In this document: positions 1 through 41,488 of the stretch, one piece after another | How the letters are laid out: each line of letters opens with the position of its first letter | Numbering within the stretch: position 1 is the stretch's first letter | Source: an uncultured Eubacterium sp. | Lineage (GTDB): Bacteria; Bacillota; Clostridia; Lachnospirales; Lachnospiraceae | Assembly (NCBI GenBank): GCA_948470065.1 | Contig: CAOKNO010000018.1 | Span: forward strand, 1-41,488 | DNA length: 41,488 nt | Direction of reading: 5' to 3' | Translations under genes and position numbers: made by a program | The notes under the pieces: model-generated | Told to the model about the DNA's origin: nothing | Database searches by the model: none | The model's input: the letters and a program-made list of their open reading frames with translations, nothing else

Positions 1-52
1 TTGTATGGATTGGACAGACGCGTCTGTCCCAGAGAGGGTTTCGCAATTACCT
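1..52 (+). repeat. Right half of the 141-bp inverted-repeat element, cut by the window start
   Basis: This is identical to positions 155-206, the right arm of the complete copy that follows; the identity runs on to position 64, giving a 154-bp tandem period. It contains the 18-bp palindrome GGACAGACGCGTCTGTCC. The same 52 bases end the window in inverse orientation (41437-41488). The left half is missing because the sequence starts inside the element, which suggests a contig boundary. Confidence 0.9.
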
Positions 53-65
53 ATCCTATCTATAT

Positions 66-206
66 AGGCGGTTGCAAAACTCCCTTTCTAGAAACAGCGG
101 ATGTTCAATCTGTACAAAATAAGGGCGACTTGCGACGGCATCTGGAGCCCGCTTTTGTATGGATTGGACAGACGCGTCTGTCCCAGAGAGGGTTTCGCAA
201 TTACCT
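66..206 (+). repeat. Complete 141-bp inverted-repeat (MITE-like) element, copy 1
   Basis: The element starts AGGCGGTTGC and ends GCAATTACCT. The first 53 bases and the reverse complement of the last 53 can be aligned without gaps, most clearly over the terminal AGG-N2-TTGC block and the inner TGT-N-CAATC block. About 35 bases separate the arms, with GGGC and GCCC that could close an inner hairpin. A second full copy of exactly the same length lies at 38431-38571. The 12-mer ATCCTATCTATA lies on both sides (53-64 and 207-218), which could be a target duplication or part of a tandem duplication. It encodes no protein. The family name is unknown to me; MITE or transcribed hairpin repeat are both possible. 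Confidence 0.85.
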
Positions 207-221
207 ATCCTATCTATAGAA

Positions 222-21638: not shown

Positions 21639-24600
21639 TTACCTCGGCACCTCAACCATAATATAAGATTCTACGATATCCAACTCCTGGATATCCCCAA
21701 AGCCTTCAAATACCAGGCCGCACTCATAGCCTGCTTTCACTTCCTTCACATCATCCTTAAAGCGCTTCAGCGACGCCAGGTTTCCTTCAAAGATCTGCTC
21801 GCCTTCCCTGGAGATCCGTACCTTACACCCTCTCTGGAACATGCCATCCAGCACGTAAGATCCTGCAATATTCCCAACGCCGGACGATTTGAAGATCTGC
21901 CGTACTTCTGCATGGCCCAGGATCTTCTCTTCAAAGACTGGATCCAGCATCCCCTTCATTGCAGACTGCACATCCTCAATGGCATTGTAGATTACCTTAT
22001 AGAGCCTCATATCCACGCCTTCCCGCTCTGCCGTTGCCTTTGCAGTCGCGTCGGGACGTACGTTAAACCCAATGATAATTGCGTTGGAAGCAGAAGCAAG
22101 GCTTACGTCAGATTCATTGATTGCGCCTACGCCCCCATGGATTACCTTAACCACAACCTCTTCGTTGGACAGCTTTACAAGGCTTTGCTTTACAGCTTCC
22201 ACGGAGCCTTGCACATCGGCCTTCACAATAATTGGAAGTTCCTTGATATTCCCAGACTGGATCTGGGAGAACAAATCGTCTAAGGACATCCTGGATCTGG
22301 TATCTTCAAGCATCTTCTCGCGCCCTTCGGAAATAAAGGTATCTGCAAAGCTCTTCGCCTCTTTTTCGGAATCGGTACATACAAAGATTTCCCCTGCATT
22401 CGGCACATTATTCAAACCTAAAATTTCCACCGGGGTAGACGGTCCTGCTTCCTTGACCCTTCTTCCCTTATCGTCAATCATCGCCCTTACTTTCCCATAA
22501 CAGCTTCCGCAGGCAACGGGCTGGCCTACCTTCAGCGTCCCCTTCTGCACCAGGATCGTAGCTACGGAACCACGTCCTTTGTCAAGCTGCGCTTCAATGA
22601 CAAGCCCCCTTGCATTCCGTTTCGGGTTCGCCTTCAATTCACTGATCTCCGCGGTCAGAAGTACCATCTCTAACAAGTTGTCAATGCCTTCATGGGTATG
22701 CGCAGATACCGGGACAAAAATCGTGCTGCCGCCCCAATCTTCCGGGATCAGTTCATACTCCGCCAATTCTTGCTTAACACGTTCTATATTCGCGCTTGGC
22801 TTATCTATTTTATTGATGGCTACGATAATTTCTACCTCAGCAGCCTTCGCATGGCTGATAGCCTCAACAGTCTGCGGCATCACGCCGTCATCTGCTGCAA
22901 CGACAAGGATTGCGATATCTGTCGCATTTGCGCCGCGCATCCGCATAGCCGTAAACGCTTCGTGCCCTGGCGTATCCAAAAACGTGATTTTCTCCCCATT
23001 GCACTCTACCATATATGCGCCTATATGCTGGGTAATGCCGCCTGCTTCCTTGTCAATCACATGCGTGTCGCGGATTGCGTCAAGCAGGGATGTCTTCCCG
23101 TGATCGACATGGCCCATAACACAGACAACCGGCGGGCGTTTTACCTGCGTAGACGCATCCTCCTCTGCTTCCTTTAAAAGCTCGGCTATCACGTCTATCT
23201 TTTCTTCCTGCTCGCAAATGCAGTTAAATTCCAATGCGATTTCCTCTGCTGTGGCAAAATCAATCTCATTGTTTACCGTTACGACATTCCCCTGCAAGAA
23301 CAGCTTTTTGATAATGGCGGAAGCCTGGACCTTCATACGGTCCGCAAGTTCTTTGATGGTCAGCTTTTCAGGCAGCGTAATATTCTTGATGGTCTCTTCC
23401 TTCGGCTGCTGGGCATGCTGCGGCTGCTGGTTCTTCTTCCCCCTGGTCTTCTTCTCTAAGTTGTCGAAGCGTTCCTTCTTCCTGCCCATCAGTTCCTTTT
23501 CATGACGCTGGCTGCCGCCCTTACGGCTGTCGCGGTCACGGCTTTCTTTGCCCCTTGCCTCATCCATGGATACCGACTGGCTGCCTTGGTTCAGCTTATT
23601 GATTTCCTGTTCAAAACGGTTCCTCTGGTTCGGACGCCCGCCTTGGCCTGGACGCGTATTCTGGCCATTCCTGCCATTCCGATCCCCGCCTGGACGCGTG
23701 TTACGGTCGCGATCCATCCCTGACCTTCCGTTCCGGTCGCGGTTCCCCTGGAAGCGGTTCCCACGATCTCCTTCTGGCCTTCCGTTCCGGTCGCGATCCC
23801 CGCCTGGCCTTCCGTTTCGGTCGCGATCCATCCCTGGCCTTCCGTTCCGGTCGCGGTTCCCCTGGAAGCGGTTCCCACGATCTCCTTCTGGCCTTCCGTT
23901 CCGGTCGCGATCCCCGCCTGGCCTTCCGTTTCGGTCACGATCCATCCCTGGCCTTCCGTTCCGGTCGCGATCCCCGCCTGGCCTTCCGTTTCGGTCACGA
24001 TCCATCCCTGGCCTTGCGCCCTGGGCACGTTCTGCGGCCGGCCTTACGTTACGTTCCTGCTCTTCCTTGGGCTTCTCTGCCTGGCTGCGGCTACGTTCTT
24101 CCAAAGGCCTGCCGCTCTTTTCTTCTGGCGTCCCAGCAGGAAGCTCTGTATTTGGCCTGCTGGCCTTTTCCTGCTGCGTCCCTTGGGGCTTGCCCCCCTT
24201 CTCCTGCTGCATCTCCAAAGGCTTTTTGCCTTCTTGAAGTTTTTCCTGGCGCTCTTCCTTGCCCTTGCGTACATTCTCCCGTACTTTGGCTGCTGGTTCA
24301 TCCGGACGCGCTACAGCGCGTTCTGCCTGGGGTTTATTTGCCCGTTCCCCCTGCGCCTTATTCCGATCCATCCTCTGGCGTTTCGGCGCCGTCTTGCTGT
24401 TCTGCGGGTTATAGACTGCTGTAATGCTCGCTTTTTTCCTTGGGCGCTCCAGCGGCTTCTTCTCCTGGGACGCGCCATCCTTCTTCGGTTCTTCTACTTT
24501 CTTCGGTTTTTCCACTTTCTTCGGCTCCTGTTCTTTTTCTGCTCCCTTTTTCTCTTGTCTTTGTACTTCCGTTTCCGTCTTTGGGGCGATAAATTTATTC

Positions 24601-24740
24601 TTTACCATTGTAATTGTGTCATCTTCAATCGAACTGCTGGCAACCTTGCCTGTAATATTCTTTTCTTTCAGAAATTCTACTACCTCTTTCGGCTGTATTT
24701 TTAATTCTTTTGCAATTTCATAAATTCTGACTTTTGCCAT
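21639..24740 (-). CDS. infB: Translation initiation factor IF-2
   Basis: IF-2 is the GTPase that brings initiator tRNA to the ribosome and promotes subunit joining. The 1033-aa protein is long for the family. It has a first IF2_N domain (residues 1-50), a disordered charged region (60-440) with a [10 protein letters not shown] repeat array (about 242-358), a second IF2_N domain (about 455-510) and the GTPase with GHVDHGKT near 545, [16 protein letters not shown] and NKIDKP. The C-terminal IF2 domains end in EVPR. GGAGG lies 9 nt before the ATG. The core is fully conserved; the repeat array is the unusual part. Confidence 0.98.
23667..24017 (-). repeat. In-frame tandem repeats in infB
   Basis: The region encodes a [10 protein letters not shown] / [10 protein letters not shown] decamer array. 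It contains two identical 38-aa (114-bp) units at 23730-23957, each made of two decamers plus [18 protein letters not shown], flanked by degenerate copies. DNA identity is nearly perfect, so copy number may vary between strains. Confidence 0.85.
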
Positions 24741-27373: not shown

Positions 27374-28633
27374 CTATACCCCGAAATGCTCAAACAGGAT
27401 CCGCTCCGCCTCTGCGTTCCACAGCCCGCGGTTCTTCTTGCATGCCTGGTTTAGCTTCTGGAACAGGGGATCCGTTTTTCCAAGCCCCTCGAAATCCTCA
27501 ATCGCTGTCAGCGGCATATCAAACTGCGTATACGTCAGCTTCTTGCCGCCTGGGATTTCTGGCAGGTGCAGCGTCGCTTCTGCAATACTGTCAATCCCGC
27601 CGACATGGGTGACCATAACGGCTGGCTCAATCCGCCCCTTCGCCGCTAGATCGTTCGCTTCCACCAAATCATCGTTATTCCCTCCGGTCGTCCCTACGAT
27701 ATGCTGGCTGGTGTAATGCACGTCGTATAGATTGATTTCCGCCTTAAACTGGCTGTCCGTAGGCCCTGCAAAGAAATTCATACAGCCGTCAAATGCCAGG
27801 ATCTGATCGCCAAGCTCCGCCACCTTGCGGTTTGGCACATATACAAATACGTCGTCATACCCTTTGCCGCCCGTCAGATCCACCAGTTCTTTCACTGGAT
27901 CCGCCATTTTCGCGGTATTTACATAGAGCAGTTCTACGCCGTTTGCCTCTGCAAAGGACTCTGGGATCACTTCTCTTGCACGTGCAATCTTGGCGTCGTC
28001 GATATCCGTTACGACTATGCGTTTTGGCTTATTCTCAAATTGGATCCCATAGCTGACCGCCCCAAGGCCCATCGGCCCGCATCCGCCCAGGATAATAATG
28101 TCGCCGCCTTCTTTCGTCCCGCCTGACAAGTCATGGTTCCTCTTATTCGTATGGTAATTCCCATGGTAGCCTCCGATAATACAGCTCATCGGCTCTCCCA
28201 GGGACGCTTCAAAAAAGCTCTCCCCTTCGTATGGCATCAAACATCCCAGCTCCATTACCTCATGCGGGATAATGCAATACGTACATGCGCCGCCAAAAAA
28301 TTCATACGAATAGCCTGGGGATGCAAGGCTTCCCTTGTAATTCAGTGCAGGCTGCTGGGCAAACTTCATGCCTGGCTTAAACTGATCCTTCCACTTCTCC
28401 CCCACTTCTACGATAATGCCTGCAAACTCATGCCCGATAATGACTGGGTTCGTATCTATGTTCTTAGGCGCGCGTTTGTGGTTTTTGCCCTGCTCTACTA
28501 ATTTATAAGTAGACATACAGATACTGTCGCTAACCACCTTTACCAGGATTTCGTCATCCTTCATCTCCGGCAACTCAAATTCCTCTAACCTCAAATCCCT
28601 AGTCCCATACATCCTGACTGCCTTTGTCTTCAT
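27374..28633 (-). CDS. Zinc-dependent MDR-family dehydrogenase, similar to L-sorbose-1-phosphate reductase
   Basis: A 419-aa medium-chain dehydrogenase that should interconvert a ketose phosphate or sugar and a polyol with NAD(P). It has the GroES-like domain with Cys in SICMSTYK and IIGHEFAGIIVEVGE, and a Rossmann domain with GGCGPMGLGAV. It is longer than simple alcohol dehydrogenases and resembles the SorE group. The start was set at the ATG at 28633 because AAGGAG lies 7 nt upstream; the longer frame runs through the repeat at 28650-28702 and is not real. It is the last gene of a PTS unit, so the substrate is probably a polyol phosphate produced on uptake. Confidence 0.82.
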   Translation of the reverse strand: MKTKAVRMYGTRDLRLEEFELPEMKDDEILVKVVSDSICMSTYKLVEQGKNHKRAPKNIDTNPVIIGHEFAGIIVEVGEKWKDQFKPGMKFAQQPALNYKGSLASPGYSYEFFGGACTYCIIPHEVMELGCLMPYEGESFFEASLGEPMSCIIGGYHGNYHTNKRNHDLSGGTKEGGDIIILGGCGPMGLGAVSYGIQFENKPKRIVVTDIDDAKIARAREVIPESFAEANGVELLYVNTAKMADPVKELVDLTGGKGYDDVFVYVPNRKVAELGDQILAFDGCMNFFAGPTDSQFKAEINLYDVHYTSQHIVGTTGGNNDDLVEANDLAAKGRIEPAVMVTHVGGIDSIAEATLHLPEIPGGKKLTYTQFDMPLTAIEDFEGLGKTDPLFQKLNQACKKNRGLWNAEAERILFEHFGV

Positions 28634-28649
28634 ATTCATTCTCCTTCTT

Positions 28650-28702
28650 TTTGTACAGATTGTACATCCGCTGTTTCTAGAAAGGGATTTTTGCAATCGC
28701 CT
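28650..28702 (-). repeat. Left half of the inverted-repeat element, isolated
   Basis: These 53 bases match the left arm of the full element (38431-38483) apart from a C-to-A change in the CAAAACTCCC part. The right arm is absent. It sits in the 118-bp gap between EIIA and the dehydrogenase, ending just before the dehydrogenase ribosome binding site. Confidence 0.85.
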
Positions 28703-28751
28703 AATCTCTTTTTCTAGGTAGTTCCCTTTCTTAGATAATTCCCTTTCCTGC

Positions 28752-38318: not shown

Positions 38319-38430
38319 ATAGATAATATTAGGTTTTTTTCTACCGATACCTTGACTGTCACCCATATAACACTTCCACTGTGTCGTTCTCCTATGTTAT
38401 GGATACCCATCCGAAAACTTATCTACAGAT

Positions 38431-38571
38431 AGGCGATTGCAAAACTCCCTTTCTAGAAACAGCGGATGTACAATCTGTACAAAAAAAGGGCGACTTGCGA
38501 CGGCATCTGGAGCCCGCTTTTGTATGGATTGTACAGACGCGTCTGTCCCAGAGAGGGTTTTGCAATTACCT
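38431..38571 (+). repeat. Complete 141-bp inverted-repeat (MITE-like) element, copy 2
   Basis: It starts AGGCGATTGCAAAAC and ends GTTTTGCAATTACCT, so the ends form the best match of the two arms. It has the same length as copy 1 and the same central 35 bases apart from a few changes. The decamer ATCTACAGAT lies immediately before it (38421-38430) and again 4 bases after it (38576-38585), possibly a target duplication. It ends 34 bases before the XRE start codon. Confidence 0.88.
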
Positions 38572-38604
38572 AATTATCTACAGATTATGAAAGGAGATTC
38601 CCTT

Positions 38605-38889
38605 ATGTTTGGCGATATTGTCAGGAAACTACGGACTTCCTATAACTTAAGCCAAGTCCAATTGGCAAAAAAACTGACTGTTTCGAAACAGACTGTTTCA
38701 AATTGGGAGAATAACAACATACTCCCATCCATTGAAATGCTGGTTAAAATATCTAAATTCTTCTCAGTAAGTACAGATTACTTATTGGAACTAGACGGCA
38801 GGCAATACATAGAAGTCACGGATTTGACAGATACAGAACGGGCGCATATTCAGCAAATTATCCAGGATATCCTAGGTAAATCGGCGTAA
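38605..38889 (+). CDS. XRE-family HTH transcriptional regulator, 94 aa
   Basis: A small Cro/CI-type repressor. The HTH_3 domain covers residues about 4-60 (IVRKLRTSYNLSQVQLAKKL, VSKQTVSNWENNNILPSIEML, STDYLLEL), followed by a short C-terminal helix (DTERAHIQQIIQDILGKSA). The start is the ATG at 38605 with AAGGAG 8 nt upstream; the frame is open further upstream only because it reads through the repeat element. The gene has its own terminator. Its target is unknown; nothing next to it is an obvious antitoxin or phage partner. Confidence 0.88.
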   Translation: MFGDIVRKLRTSYNLSQVQLAKKLTVSKQTVSNWENNNILPSIEMLVKISKFFSVSTDYLLELDGRQYIEVTDLTDTERAHIQQIIQDILGKSA

Positions 38890-38932: not shown

Positions 38933-39268
38933 CCGCCCCAAGGGGCGGGGTATTCGCACCCCTAGGGGCAACTTGACTAACTTTATCACGGTAACAAAAA
39001 CGGCATGTATCGTTACAGTATCTTGTTATATTCCAACATACAGAATTTGGCATTTTCATCTTATGTCCCTCCCATAGTAAATAAATACCAGAAATTACCT
39101 ATCGACTATTTTATCAATACTTTCGTATGTTGTAAATACTTTCCAATGTATTTTTTCCTAAAATATAGAAATAACCATACGTACGCCATTCAGGAAAGAC
39201 CGTTTTCCTTTGGCACGTGCTAGGAAATATTTCATACAATAAATTAAGTAATTTCTAAGGAGGAATCC
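38933..39268. other. Intergenic region with two GC-rich hairpins, then AT-rich DNA
   Basis: CCGCCCC-AA-GGGGCGG (38933-38948) and CCCCTAGGGG (38959-38968) follow the XRE terminator. The remaining 300 bases are AT-rich and contain no gene, no clear sigma-A promoter and no riboswitch that I recognise; they should hold the promoter of the truncated ABC gene. Confidence 0.6.
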
Positions 39269-39451
39269 ATGGAAACAATATTGGAAGCCAGCCATGTCAG
39301 CTATTCTTACCATACCATGCAGGGAGAAACGCCTGCTTTATCCAATATAAATTTTACCGTCCAGCGGGGTGATTTCCTAGCGGTTGTCGGTCCTAGCGGG
39401 TGCGGCAATGCAATGGTTCTGCTGTGGAAACAACTTACATTATATTTTTAA
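39269..39451 (+). pseudogene. N-terminal fragment of an ABC transporter ATPase, cut in Walker A
   Basis: The first 46 residues (ASHVSYSYHT, PALSNINFTVQRGDFLAVVGPSGCG) are a normal start of an importer ATPase of the nitrate/sulfonate/taurine type. The expected GPSGCGKST is broken after GPSGCG: it reads GPSGCGN followed by 13 unrelated residues and a stop. The catalytic lysine, Q-loop, signature and Walker B are absent, so it cannot bind or hydrolyse ATP. AAGGAGG lies 5 nt before the ATG, so the 5' end is intact. The break near 39408 marks a join with foreign DNA that leads to the recombinase; the rest of the gene is not in this window. Confidence 0.82.
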
Positions 39452-39773: not shown

Positions 39774-41426
39774 TCAGATAAAAATATGCGCTTGTTCGCC
39801 ATCCCAGACAGCTTTGTCTAACACCATCCTCAGATACTCCCTCTTTTCTGGGACGCTGAATGTATGGAACAGGCGTTTGAAAGACGAGAGCTGCTCCATC
39901 AAAAATGCAAGCTGCTGCCTGTCTCCTTGGATATTTGTGGCTTCCGTTCCCAACCTTGCTTTTTCCTTCTCCAATGACGCGCATTCCCTATTTAATTTTA
40001 AGGCCTCCTGCTCAATCTGGCTGATAAACTCCTGATCGCCGCTGGATTTTGCTAAAGTGGAGATTAGGTTTTGCACTTCCTTTTTCCGTTTCTGTATCTC
40101 CCGCTCCAAAAGAGCTGCGGACGTCGCTTTTTCTTCTTTTGTATCTTCCACGTGCTCCATGGCTGTTTGCAGCATTTGCTGGATATCAGAGTATTCCTCC
40201 GTATAACGCAATACCTCCCTACATACCAGTTCATCCAAGGTGTTGCCCTGGATATTGGGCACGGAGCATTTCTTTCCGTGGGTCATGTCTTTATAGGGGC
40301 AGAGATAGGAAAATTTACGTTCTCCCTGTTCTGTCAACTGTTTTGCAGAATAATATTTGGGACGCATCAGATGACCGCAGGAACAATGCAGGATTCCTGA
40401 TAAAAGCGCCACCTGATTCTGTGTCTTATGCCAGGTTTCCCCTTTGGAACTGTTTCTTGCAAGAAGTTTCTGGATTTTGGAAAAATCCTTCCCAGAAATA
40501 ATCCCTGGATGTTTCCCTTTTGCCACAATCCATTTTTCCGGCGCATTCTCTTTCTTCTTATACTGTGACGAGGAAGTCTTCGCATAGGCAATCAAACCGT
40601 ATTTCCCATCCGCCTCTTCTTCATCCATACAGACCTGACAGCCCAAATTCCAGAAATACTGGTAAGCTTCCCGATCTGCCCGGCAGTACACGGGGTTGTT
40701 CAGAATATCGCGGATAGCTGTGGTTGTGTACTCATTCCCACGTTTTGTTTTGATCTTATGATTTAAAAAATACCTTACAATCCCCGTAAGGGACTGCCGT
40801 TTTAAATATTCCTCAAATATAAACCGAACCGTCTCCATCTCTTCTTCATCCACAACAAGACGGAAAAATTTTTTATTCCTTCCATTGGTAACGGCCTTTT
40901 CCTCCGATTCCGCGCGAAACCCCAAAGGCGTGTTTCCACCAAGCCATCTTCCCTTCCTTGCAAGCATAACCATATTGTCCCGGACACGTTCTGCAATCTG
41001 CTCCCGCTCCATCTGCGCCAATACCCCGGCAAAGTATAGCATCGCCTTCCCTATGGGCGTGGACGTGTCAAACCGTTCCTTAATACTAATAAAGGAGACG
41101 TTAAGCTTGTTCAACGTCTCCACCAAATTTGCCAAATCCGCTATGTTTCTCCCCAACCTGTCTAGCTTGTAACAGATAAGGTAATTGCAGCCGCCTTTGT
41201 GAATCTCCTTCATCATTTCCTGGAACTGTGGGCGGTTGGTATCCTTCCCAGAATACCCTTCGTCTTCAAATACCGTAATTTGCGCCTGATTTGCCTCTTC
41301 TATATTGAATTGTATGTAATCCCGGCACATGGCTATCTGGTTCTCCACGCTCTCGCCCCTGCCGGTCCATTTGGATTTCCTGCTGTAGATAAAAATATTC
41401 ACTTTTTCATTTCTCCCTTCCCTCAT
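39774..41426 (-). CDS. Large serine recombinase (resolvase/invertase family)
   Basis: Large serine recombinases integrate and excise mobile elements at attachment sites through a 5' phosphoserine link. The product of up to 550 aa has the catalytic domain with Ser15 in IYSRKSKWTGRGESVENQ, EDEGYSGKDTNRP and YKLDRLGRN (residues 1-150), a recombinase domain (about 165-290), a zinc ribbon (CSCGHLMRPKYY and CPYKDMTHGKKC) and a C-terminal coiled coil (about 420-500). The ATG at 41426 has no ribosome binding site; a GTG at 41402 with GGGAG 10 nt upstream may be the true start. The repeat element's right arm ends 10 bases before 41426. No other mobile-element genes are in the window. Confidence 0.93.
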   Translation of the reverse strand: MREGRNEKVNIFIYSRKSKWTGRGESVENQIAMCRDYIQFNIEEANQAQITVFEDEGYSGKDTNRPQFQEMMKEIHKGGCNYLICYKLDRLGRNIADLANLVETLNKLNVSFISIKERFDTSTPIGKAMLYFAGVLAQMEREQIAERVRDNMVMLARKGRWLGGNTPLGFRAESEEKAVTNGRNKKFFRLVVDEEEMETVRFIFEEYLKRQSLTGIVRYFLNHKIKTKRGNEYTTTAIRDILNNPVYCRADREAYQYFWNLGCQVCMDEEEADGKYGLIAYAKTSSSQYKKKENAPEKWIVAKGKHPGIISGKDFSKIQKLLARNSSKGETWHKTQNQVALLSGILHCSCGHLMRPKYYSAKQLTEQGERKFSYLCPYKDMTHGKKCSVPNIQGNTLDELVCREVLRYTEEYSDIQQMLQTAMEHVEDTKEEKATSAALLEREIQKRKKEVQNLISTLAKSSGDQEFISQIEQEALKLNRECASLEKEKARLGTEATNIQGDRQQLAFLMEQLSSFKRLFHTFSVPEKREYLRMVLDKAVWDGEQAHIFI

Positions 41427-41436
41427 TAAATTCTTT

Positions 41437-41488
41437 AGGTAATTGCGAAACCCTCTCTGGGACAGACGCGTCTGTCCAATCCATACAA
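41437..41488 (-). repeat. Right half of the inverted-repeat element, cut by the window end
   Basis: These bases are the exact reverse complement of positions 1-52. The arm reads toward the recombinase gene, so the element, if complete beyond the window, lies just upstream of it. Confidence 0.9.

Follow-up and report, generated by a model that had tools for sequence, protein, structure and literature searches.

The repeated element of the window, which is the whole of contig C18 (41,488 nt) in a 3.05-Mb draft genome of 142 contigs with an estimated completeness of 85.5%, is a high-copy MITE with roughly ninety copies in its own genome. Comparison of its copies and relatives makes it highly probable that we are dealing with an insertion sequence (IS) lineage whose integration is anchored to the Shine-Dalgarno (SD) sequence of genes, at a fixed distance and in a specific orientation, together with its non-autonomous MITEs. 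This reading is based on the element ends, the target duplications, the fixed distance, the orientation of the IS, a rule common to IS and MITEs and one empty orthologous site, all of which can be read in the sequences. The fixed distance to the SD is a landing rule that was overlooked in the earlier reading of this DNA.

The window contains two complete copies (38430–38572 and 65–207) of 143 bp each, which are 97% identical over 144 nt. The original prediction had described two full inverted-repeat copies, and both are present, but each true end extends a base beyond the predicted one (TAGG...CCTA); the terminal T and A are assigned to the element because the duplicated flanks differ at those bases at several sites. 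The short direct repeats that it had noticed near both copies correspond to target site duplications, TTATCTACAGA and TCCTATCTATA. Three half copies had also been claimed: the one at 28640–28703 is a true deletion remnant, while those at 1–53 and 41436–41488 are only cut by the contig ends. The XRE and recombinase genes predicted behind two of the copies were recognized by Pfam, which also identified a zinc-binding alcohol dehydrogenase gene behind the third copy, the remnant. For the serine recombinase we propose a GTG start at 41402. The coordinates are collected in Table 1.

Table 1. Copies of the element in the window, with their duplicated targets, SD words and neighboring genes.
Feature	Position	Strand	Remarks
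Right part of a further copy	1..53	+	Cut by contig end; tandem with 65–207
Duplicated target TCCTATCTATA	54..64		Between tandem copies 1–53 and 65–207
Complete MITE, subfamily A	65..207	+	In tandem; visible free side without SD word
Second TCCTATCTATA duplication	208..218		After MITE 65–207
Zinc-binding alcohol dehydrogenase gene	27374..28633		Pfam; SD AAGAAGGAG
Remnant, left 64 bp of a copy	28640..28703	-	Remainder gone up to SD AAGAAGGAG
Left target site duplication TTATCTACAGA	38419..38429		Of MITE 38430–38572
Complete MITE, subfamily A	38430..38572	+	Ends TAGG...CCTA
Right target site duplication TTATCTACAGA	38574..38584		Base 38573 separates it from the MITE
SD AAAGGAG	38590..38596	+	Starts 17 nt past MITE 38430–38572
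XRE/HTH_3 regulator, target gene of MITE 38430–38572	38605..38889	+	Pfam HTH_3, E 2.8e-17
Serine recombinase, target gene of copy 41436–41488	39774..41402	-	Pfam Resolvase, E 4.2e-37; Recombinase, E 1e-22
SD variant GAAGGGAG	41413..41420	-	Starts 15 nt from the end of element 41436–41488
Right part of a copy	41436..41488	-	Cut by contig end

Two other features of the window were observed. At 39268–39450 the start of an ABC transporter ATPase-like gene, recognized by eye, stops after the Walker A region and is perhaps a deletion remnant. The initiation factor 2 gene (ORF 21639–24740) contains three 114-nt tandem repeats at 23680–24021, the third of which is just 63% like the first.

At least 17 contigs of the same assembly start at one identical place within the element, and therefore the assembly broke in the repeat. 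A BLAST search with the window element gave at least 48 matches in its own genome (40 of the 155 candidates were scored), and a covariance model gave at least 66 (110 of 1750 candidates scored); in each list a few matches are one place matched on both strands. The stretches fetched from this genome held 127 matched pieces, 53 of them complete: 37 of subfamily A and 16 of a second subfamily, B, whose identity to A is about 85%. The distinct flanks number at least 95 at right junctions and at least 85 at left junctions; the catalogue and the junction counts are lower bounds drawn from a part of the listed contig ends. The element is 143 bp long, contains no gene and has the terminal inverted repeats TAGGCGATTGCAAAAC / GTTTCGCAATTACCTA. 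Derivatives of about 55–68 bp that keep both ends were seen in the same genome (L041, L045) and in genome G021 (L346, L347, L352, L357). Several of them adjoin an SD word, and they perhaps represent the minimal mobile unit.

In the 53 complete MITE copies with both flanks, an SD word within 12–28 nt of the element end (AAAGGAG, AAAGGA, AAGGAG and near variants) is present on exactly one side in 46, on both sides in one and on neither side in six. Forty-six of the 48 words begin 14–17 nt from the element, at about 16 nt, and all six copies that lack a word stand in tandem arrays, including the window copy 65–207. By the same criteria, just one side bears a word at 4.1% of the 40,751 window positions that served as background; in own-genome stretches away from element ends, where overlapping stretches were counted repeatedly, 3.4% of positions have a word on either side. 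The rule extends to genome G021, whose MITEs of 55, 131, about 285 and about 334 bp have the same ends as the window MITE. Its 17 paired sites (three of 20 stretches, without a pair of ends, were dropped) show a strict SD word in 13 cases, a variant recognized by reading in two and a left flank cut short in two; a duplication is found at 14 sites and none at three.

The anchor of this distance was examined in 275 flanks, 95 from the left end of the IS described below and 180 from MITEs, about half of which must face away; duplicate flanks and those shorter than 45 nt were dropped. An SD word occurs in 158 of them (80 MITE, 78 IS). In 117 of these flanks an ORF of 40 codons follows; here the word has its GG 18.79 nt (sd 1.34) from the junction, and the start codon lies at 30.82 nt (sd 2.72); the spacing between word and start has an sd of 2.55 and a correlation of r = -0.13 with the GG distance. 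The word, with the smaller spread, and not the start codon determines where the junction falls. The other 41 words are not followed by an ORF of 40 codons, and some of them may belong to decayed genes or to short flanks. Within the window, the same test places an ORF behind 5 of 9 AAAGGAG words and behind 37 of 95 AGGAG words.

The identification as a MITE is supported by the inverted ends, the high copy number, duplications that vary between sites and an uninterrupted dnaG site in relatives. Target duplications, empty sites and a full-length transposon with the same ends had been named as points to look for in the original prediction, and all three were found. Duplications of 9–12 bp, with at most one mismatch and a sequence that varies by site, flank 42 of the 46 complete copies examined, and are absent in four; the duplicated target is AT-rich. 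For the empty sites, the joined flanks of two sites (of 28 prepared) were searched in 29 genomes of the genus. The joined dnaG leader is crossed by a single alignment in 23 of 28 same-genus genomes, as in G024, where the alignment of 378 nt covers query positions 25–404 with the junction near 203, and it matches its own genome in two pieces as expected. The second joined site gave no alignment across the junction in the same-genus genomes. In the orthologous dnaG leader of G018 (C15:63199-63479), about 210 nt more than in the query lie between two aligned pieces, and this leader may carry an element of its own.

No DNA match to the window element at E <= 0.001 was obtained outside its own genome among 60 relatives, because the interiors of the MITEs differ between species while the ends are common. 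The covariance model gave one match in each of two relatives only, and the pattern of the element ends had 10 or more matches in 10 of the 28 same-genus genomes, with 0–3 for the reversed-pattern control. The plasmid and phage collections contained no match to the window element.

The full-length transposon with the same ends occurs in same-genus genomes and across Lachnospiraceae, and it follows the same landing rule; an intact copy, L253, is present in Roseburia inulinivorans DSM 16841. This IS has 1.62–1.83 kb and encodes an IS1182-like DDE transposase of 484 aa with the DUF772 domain. Among 76 complete distinct copies (two sets pooled; copies were used if both ends were present and each side had at least 30 nt), 65 have the SD word on the left only and none on the right only; one has it on both sides and 10 on neither. 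Four of these ten are internal to tandem arrays, five have left SD variants by reading, and one (L317) has nothing. Target duplications of 9–13 bp are perfect in 53 of the 76 copies, have one mismatch in three and are absent in 20. A looser list of SD words was applied to a named set, which comprises 80 of the 197 transposase relatives: 61 of 65 left flanks contained an SD-like word at 10–29 nt, 60 of them at 13–18 nt, after removal of 14 loci without a usable left end and of one duplicate flank. The 17 of the 95 IS left flanks without a strict word were read one by one and, by our reading, are four tandem neighbors, three other-end matches, one fragment (L299), eight SD variants and one flank with no such word (L317).

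The five copies read from an IS subfamily with 51–53% identity (L243, L244, L245, L207, L221) all obey the landing rule. A distinct IS1182-type transposon of G026, with a 546-aa frame and about 32% identity over the matched part, does not clearly obey it: L246 and L247 have an SD word 10–11 nt from the right end, L249 and L250, with one end each in the stretch, have no SD word, and neither end of L248 was recognized.

Forty-three transposases were aligned, 40 from the 68 intact named loci and three from same-genus genomes. All of them match the NCBIfam IS1182 model at E <= 0.001, with the first member at 65.2 bits, below the curated cut-off of 270 for this model (NF033551). PF05598 (DUF772) was above its cut-off in three of three transposases, and DDE_Tnp_1 in one of three. 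Residues D146, D287 and E426 are invariant in the alignment and are assigned as the putative DDE triad; cysteines 333, 361, 381 and 385 are conserved. The transposase had no PDB match by sequence and was not found in the phage collection; three records of the plasmid collection contain it. The IS adjoins AAAGGAG in a plasmid of Roseburia sp. 831b (L359) and, in pCY360 of Butyrivibrio proteoclasticus (L360), its copies stand in tandem behind the word TGGAGGG; the incomplete plasmid gene table lists no transposase at either locus. A protein search of the 85.5% complete own genome recovered only a 37-aa transposase remnant, 78% identical. The IS partner may belong to the unassembled portion of this genome, may have dropped out during assembly because it is a repeat, or may be extinct there. 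A CTCC(TCA) stretch was also observed 64–65 nt inside the left end in 66 of 68 IS copies (L251–L328), and in 63 of 66 predicted folds of a transcript from the left end it would pair with the transposase's own SD. This pairing is similar to the way in which IS10 and IS50 are shielded from read-through transcription.

The orientation of the IS is strict, with the left end toward the SD in 65:0 and one ambiguous copy, whereas that of the MITEs is loose, with the right end toward the SD in 51 and the left end in 29 (p = 0.018 for the + excess). Tandem arrays have the order element, duplication, element, duplication, SD; in several of them A and B copies have one duplication in common, and full copies of the IS also occur in such arrays (L231, L235, L242, L360). 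Among the MITE pairs that were read, which are not an exhaustive set, twelve have the same direction (C18, C26, C50, C60, C64, C77, C79, C98, C101, C109, C127, C134) and two are opposed (C4, C76), a mostly uniform direction as against the 51:29 split of single MITEs. Slippage is an unlikely source of the arrays, because A and B copies occur together in a single array and have the duplication in common. The arrays are explained by successive insertions at the same SD-anchored site.

Folded as RNA with short flanks, the + strand of the MITE gave -70.2 kcal/mol (z = -8.0) and the other strand -61.9 kcal/mol (z = -6.3); pairing of the arms is imperfect. In the whole structure 93.8% of the cells are paired, and both partners have changed in 8 pairs, compared with an average of 4.4 after shuffling. 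On the + strand, the inner stem has 65 G-U cells (12 pairs) against 6 A-C cells (4 pairs), while the outer arms, with 68 and 51, have hardly an excess; such cells are not independent events, because the copies are related. The compensatory changes and the G-U excess of the inner stem hint at a role for the + strand hairpin at some step, either as RNA or as single-stranded DNA. In this respect the mobile RNA hairpin of the original prediction was in part sustained, but the copies in both orientations speak against it. Rfam gave no match at the gathering score within the window. A CTCCC stretch of subfamily A was considered as an anti-SD guide and rejected, because subfamily B lacks it.

We propose that the transposase would bind the element ends of about 18 bp (TAGGNNNTTGCRAAAC...) and dock in the target on the purine word AAAGGAG/AGGAG. 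The element would then be joined about 16 nt before the word, with 9–12 bp duplicated, and the gene-side copy of the duplication would keep the native leader beside the SD. The left end of the IS would face the SD, and its transposase gene would therefore read away from the target gene, whereas MITEs would use either end. We infer that a protein reads the SD word in DNA, perhaps by means of the conserved cysteine-rich insertion of the transposase. The ends, the duplications and the landing rule suggest that this transposase lineage moved the MITEs of the window and of its genome. The advantage would be a nearly harmless landing place outside coding sequence.

A landing machinery that reads the translation start (ribosome, mRNA or 16S anti-SD) and not a DNA word would account for the fact that the word is the ribosome-binding site and that 117 of 158 words precede an ORF, compared with 37 of 95 AGGAG words in the window. 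We consider it unlikely, since the junction keeps its distance from the word more closely than from the start codon (sd 1.34 vs 2.72), although rRNA pairing predicts likewise, and 41 of 158 words are without a clear ORF, which fits word recognition but also decayed genes. There is little probability that the lineage targets the translation signal itself, finding it via RNA or the translation apparatus (16S anti-SD, nascent mRNA), in which case expressed genes would be preferred. Random or merely AT-biased insertion, with selection removing the copies outside gene leaders, would agree with the AT-rich duplicated target, and copies inside genes would be selected against; but selection should tolerate 30 or 50 nt like 16, while the spread is about 1.3 nt for MITE and IS, and the orientation of 65:0 in the IS, with one ambiguous copy, makes such an origin extremely improbable.

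The target duplications, together with both orientations, the tandem arrays, the different downstream genes, the lack of a window match in Rfam and the existence of an IS that has these ends and obeys this rule, render it very improbable that the element is a cis-acting structured RNA leader for gene regulation spread by duplication, even with its strong hairpin, the 8 two-sided pair changes against 4.4 shuffled, the 65 G-U cells against 6 A-C and the 51:29 excess of + orientation (p = 0.018). Single MITE copies may, nevertheless, have been co-opted as leader elements. We also see little probability that a different transposase, obeying the same landing rule, mobilized the MITEs in this genome. 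No intact partner was found in the genome, the left end of subfamily A differs from that of the IS at several positions, and MITE orientation is loose where that of the IS is strict; on the other hand, most A copies have the same right end, GTTTCGCAATTACCTA, as the IS of G026, left ends of subfamily B, for instance TAGGCGTTTGCGAAACTC, are one letter in 18 off the IS left end, and the sole remnant found in the genome belongs to the IS transposase.

Integration of an IS lineage and its MITEs at the SD word, as preferred here, would have consequences for the host and for annotation. With a fixed place of integration before ribosome-binding sites, an element could gain access to nearly all genes and disrupt few of them. 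In the genome studied, a strong hairpin has been inserted in dozens of leaders, close upstream of the landing place of the ribosome, and these hairpins may therefore readily give rise to changes of gene expression in gut bacteria. The question is raised of how a single DDE transposase would recognize a short word at a distance of about 19 bp from the joint and, if active in the laboratory, the system would be a means to place cargo just upstream of genes. The landing rule also helps to annotate IS and ribosome-binding sites in Lachnospiraceae.

SD-anchored insertion was not recognized in any description in the open-access literature searched, which does not prove its absence. The IS1182 family, for example IS1272, is like the IS partner in the DUF772 domain, the model match at E <= 0.001 and the size. 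IS1272 inserts by replacing targets that are inverted repeats, and no duplication results (PMC5678879); the IS partner, judged by its duplications (56 of 76 copies), does not behave in this way and is SD-anchored. With respect to the fixed landing distance, the closest parallel is the IS1202 family, also a single-transposase IS, in which ISAjo2 lies 5 bp from the XerC site of pdif in one orientation (PMC10132070). It differs in the target, the 5-bp duplications, the TnsB-like transposase and the TGT...ACA ends.

Bacterial MITEs such as Correia, MITEAba12, RUP and SPRITE are, like the window MITE, short and non-coding, with inverted ends and duplications, and are moved in trans. Correia elements are said, in the excerpt consulted, to map immediately upstream of genes (PMC10969869). 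MITEAba12 is described in the accessible section of its report with 9-bp duplications, AT-rich and without sequence trend, and an IS partner with matching ends (PMC6382973). As an example of a MITE that has an IS partner, it comes closest; unlike the window MITE, none of these elements is described with a fixed SD distance in the parts of the sources available. The transposases of Tn5/IS50 and piggyBac have 8–10% identity to the IS transposase, and their ends and targets are other than those of the IS partner. Tn7 at attTn7 and group IIC introns at terminators follow, like the IS partner, a safe-site strategy at the edge of genes, but they use the downstream edge and other machinery. The MITE itself is ordinary in this company, and the targeting system is unusual among DDE insertion sequences with target specificity.
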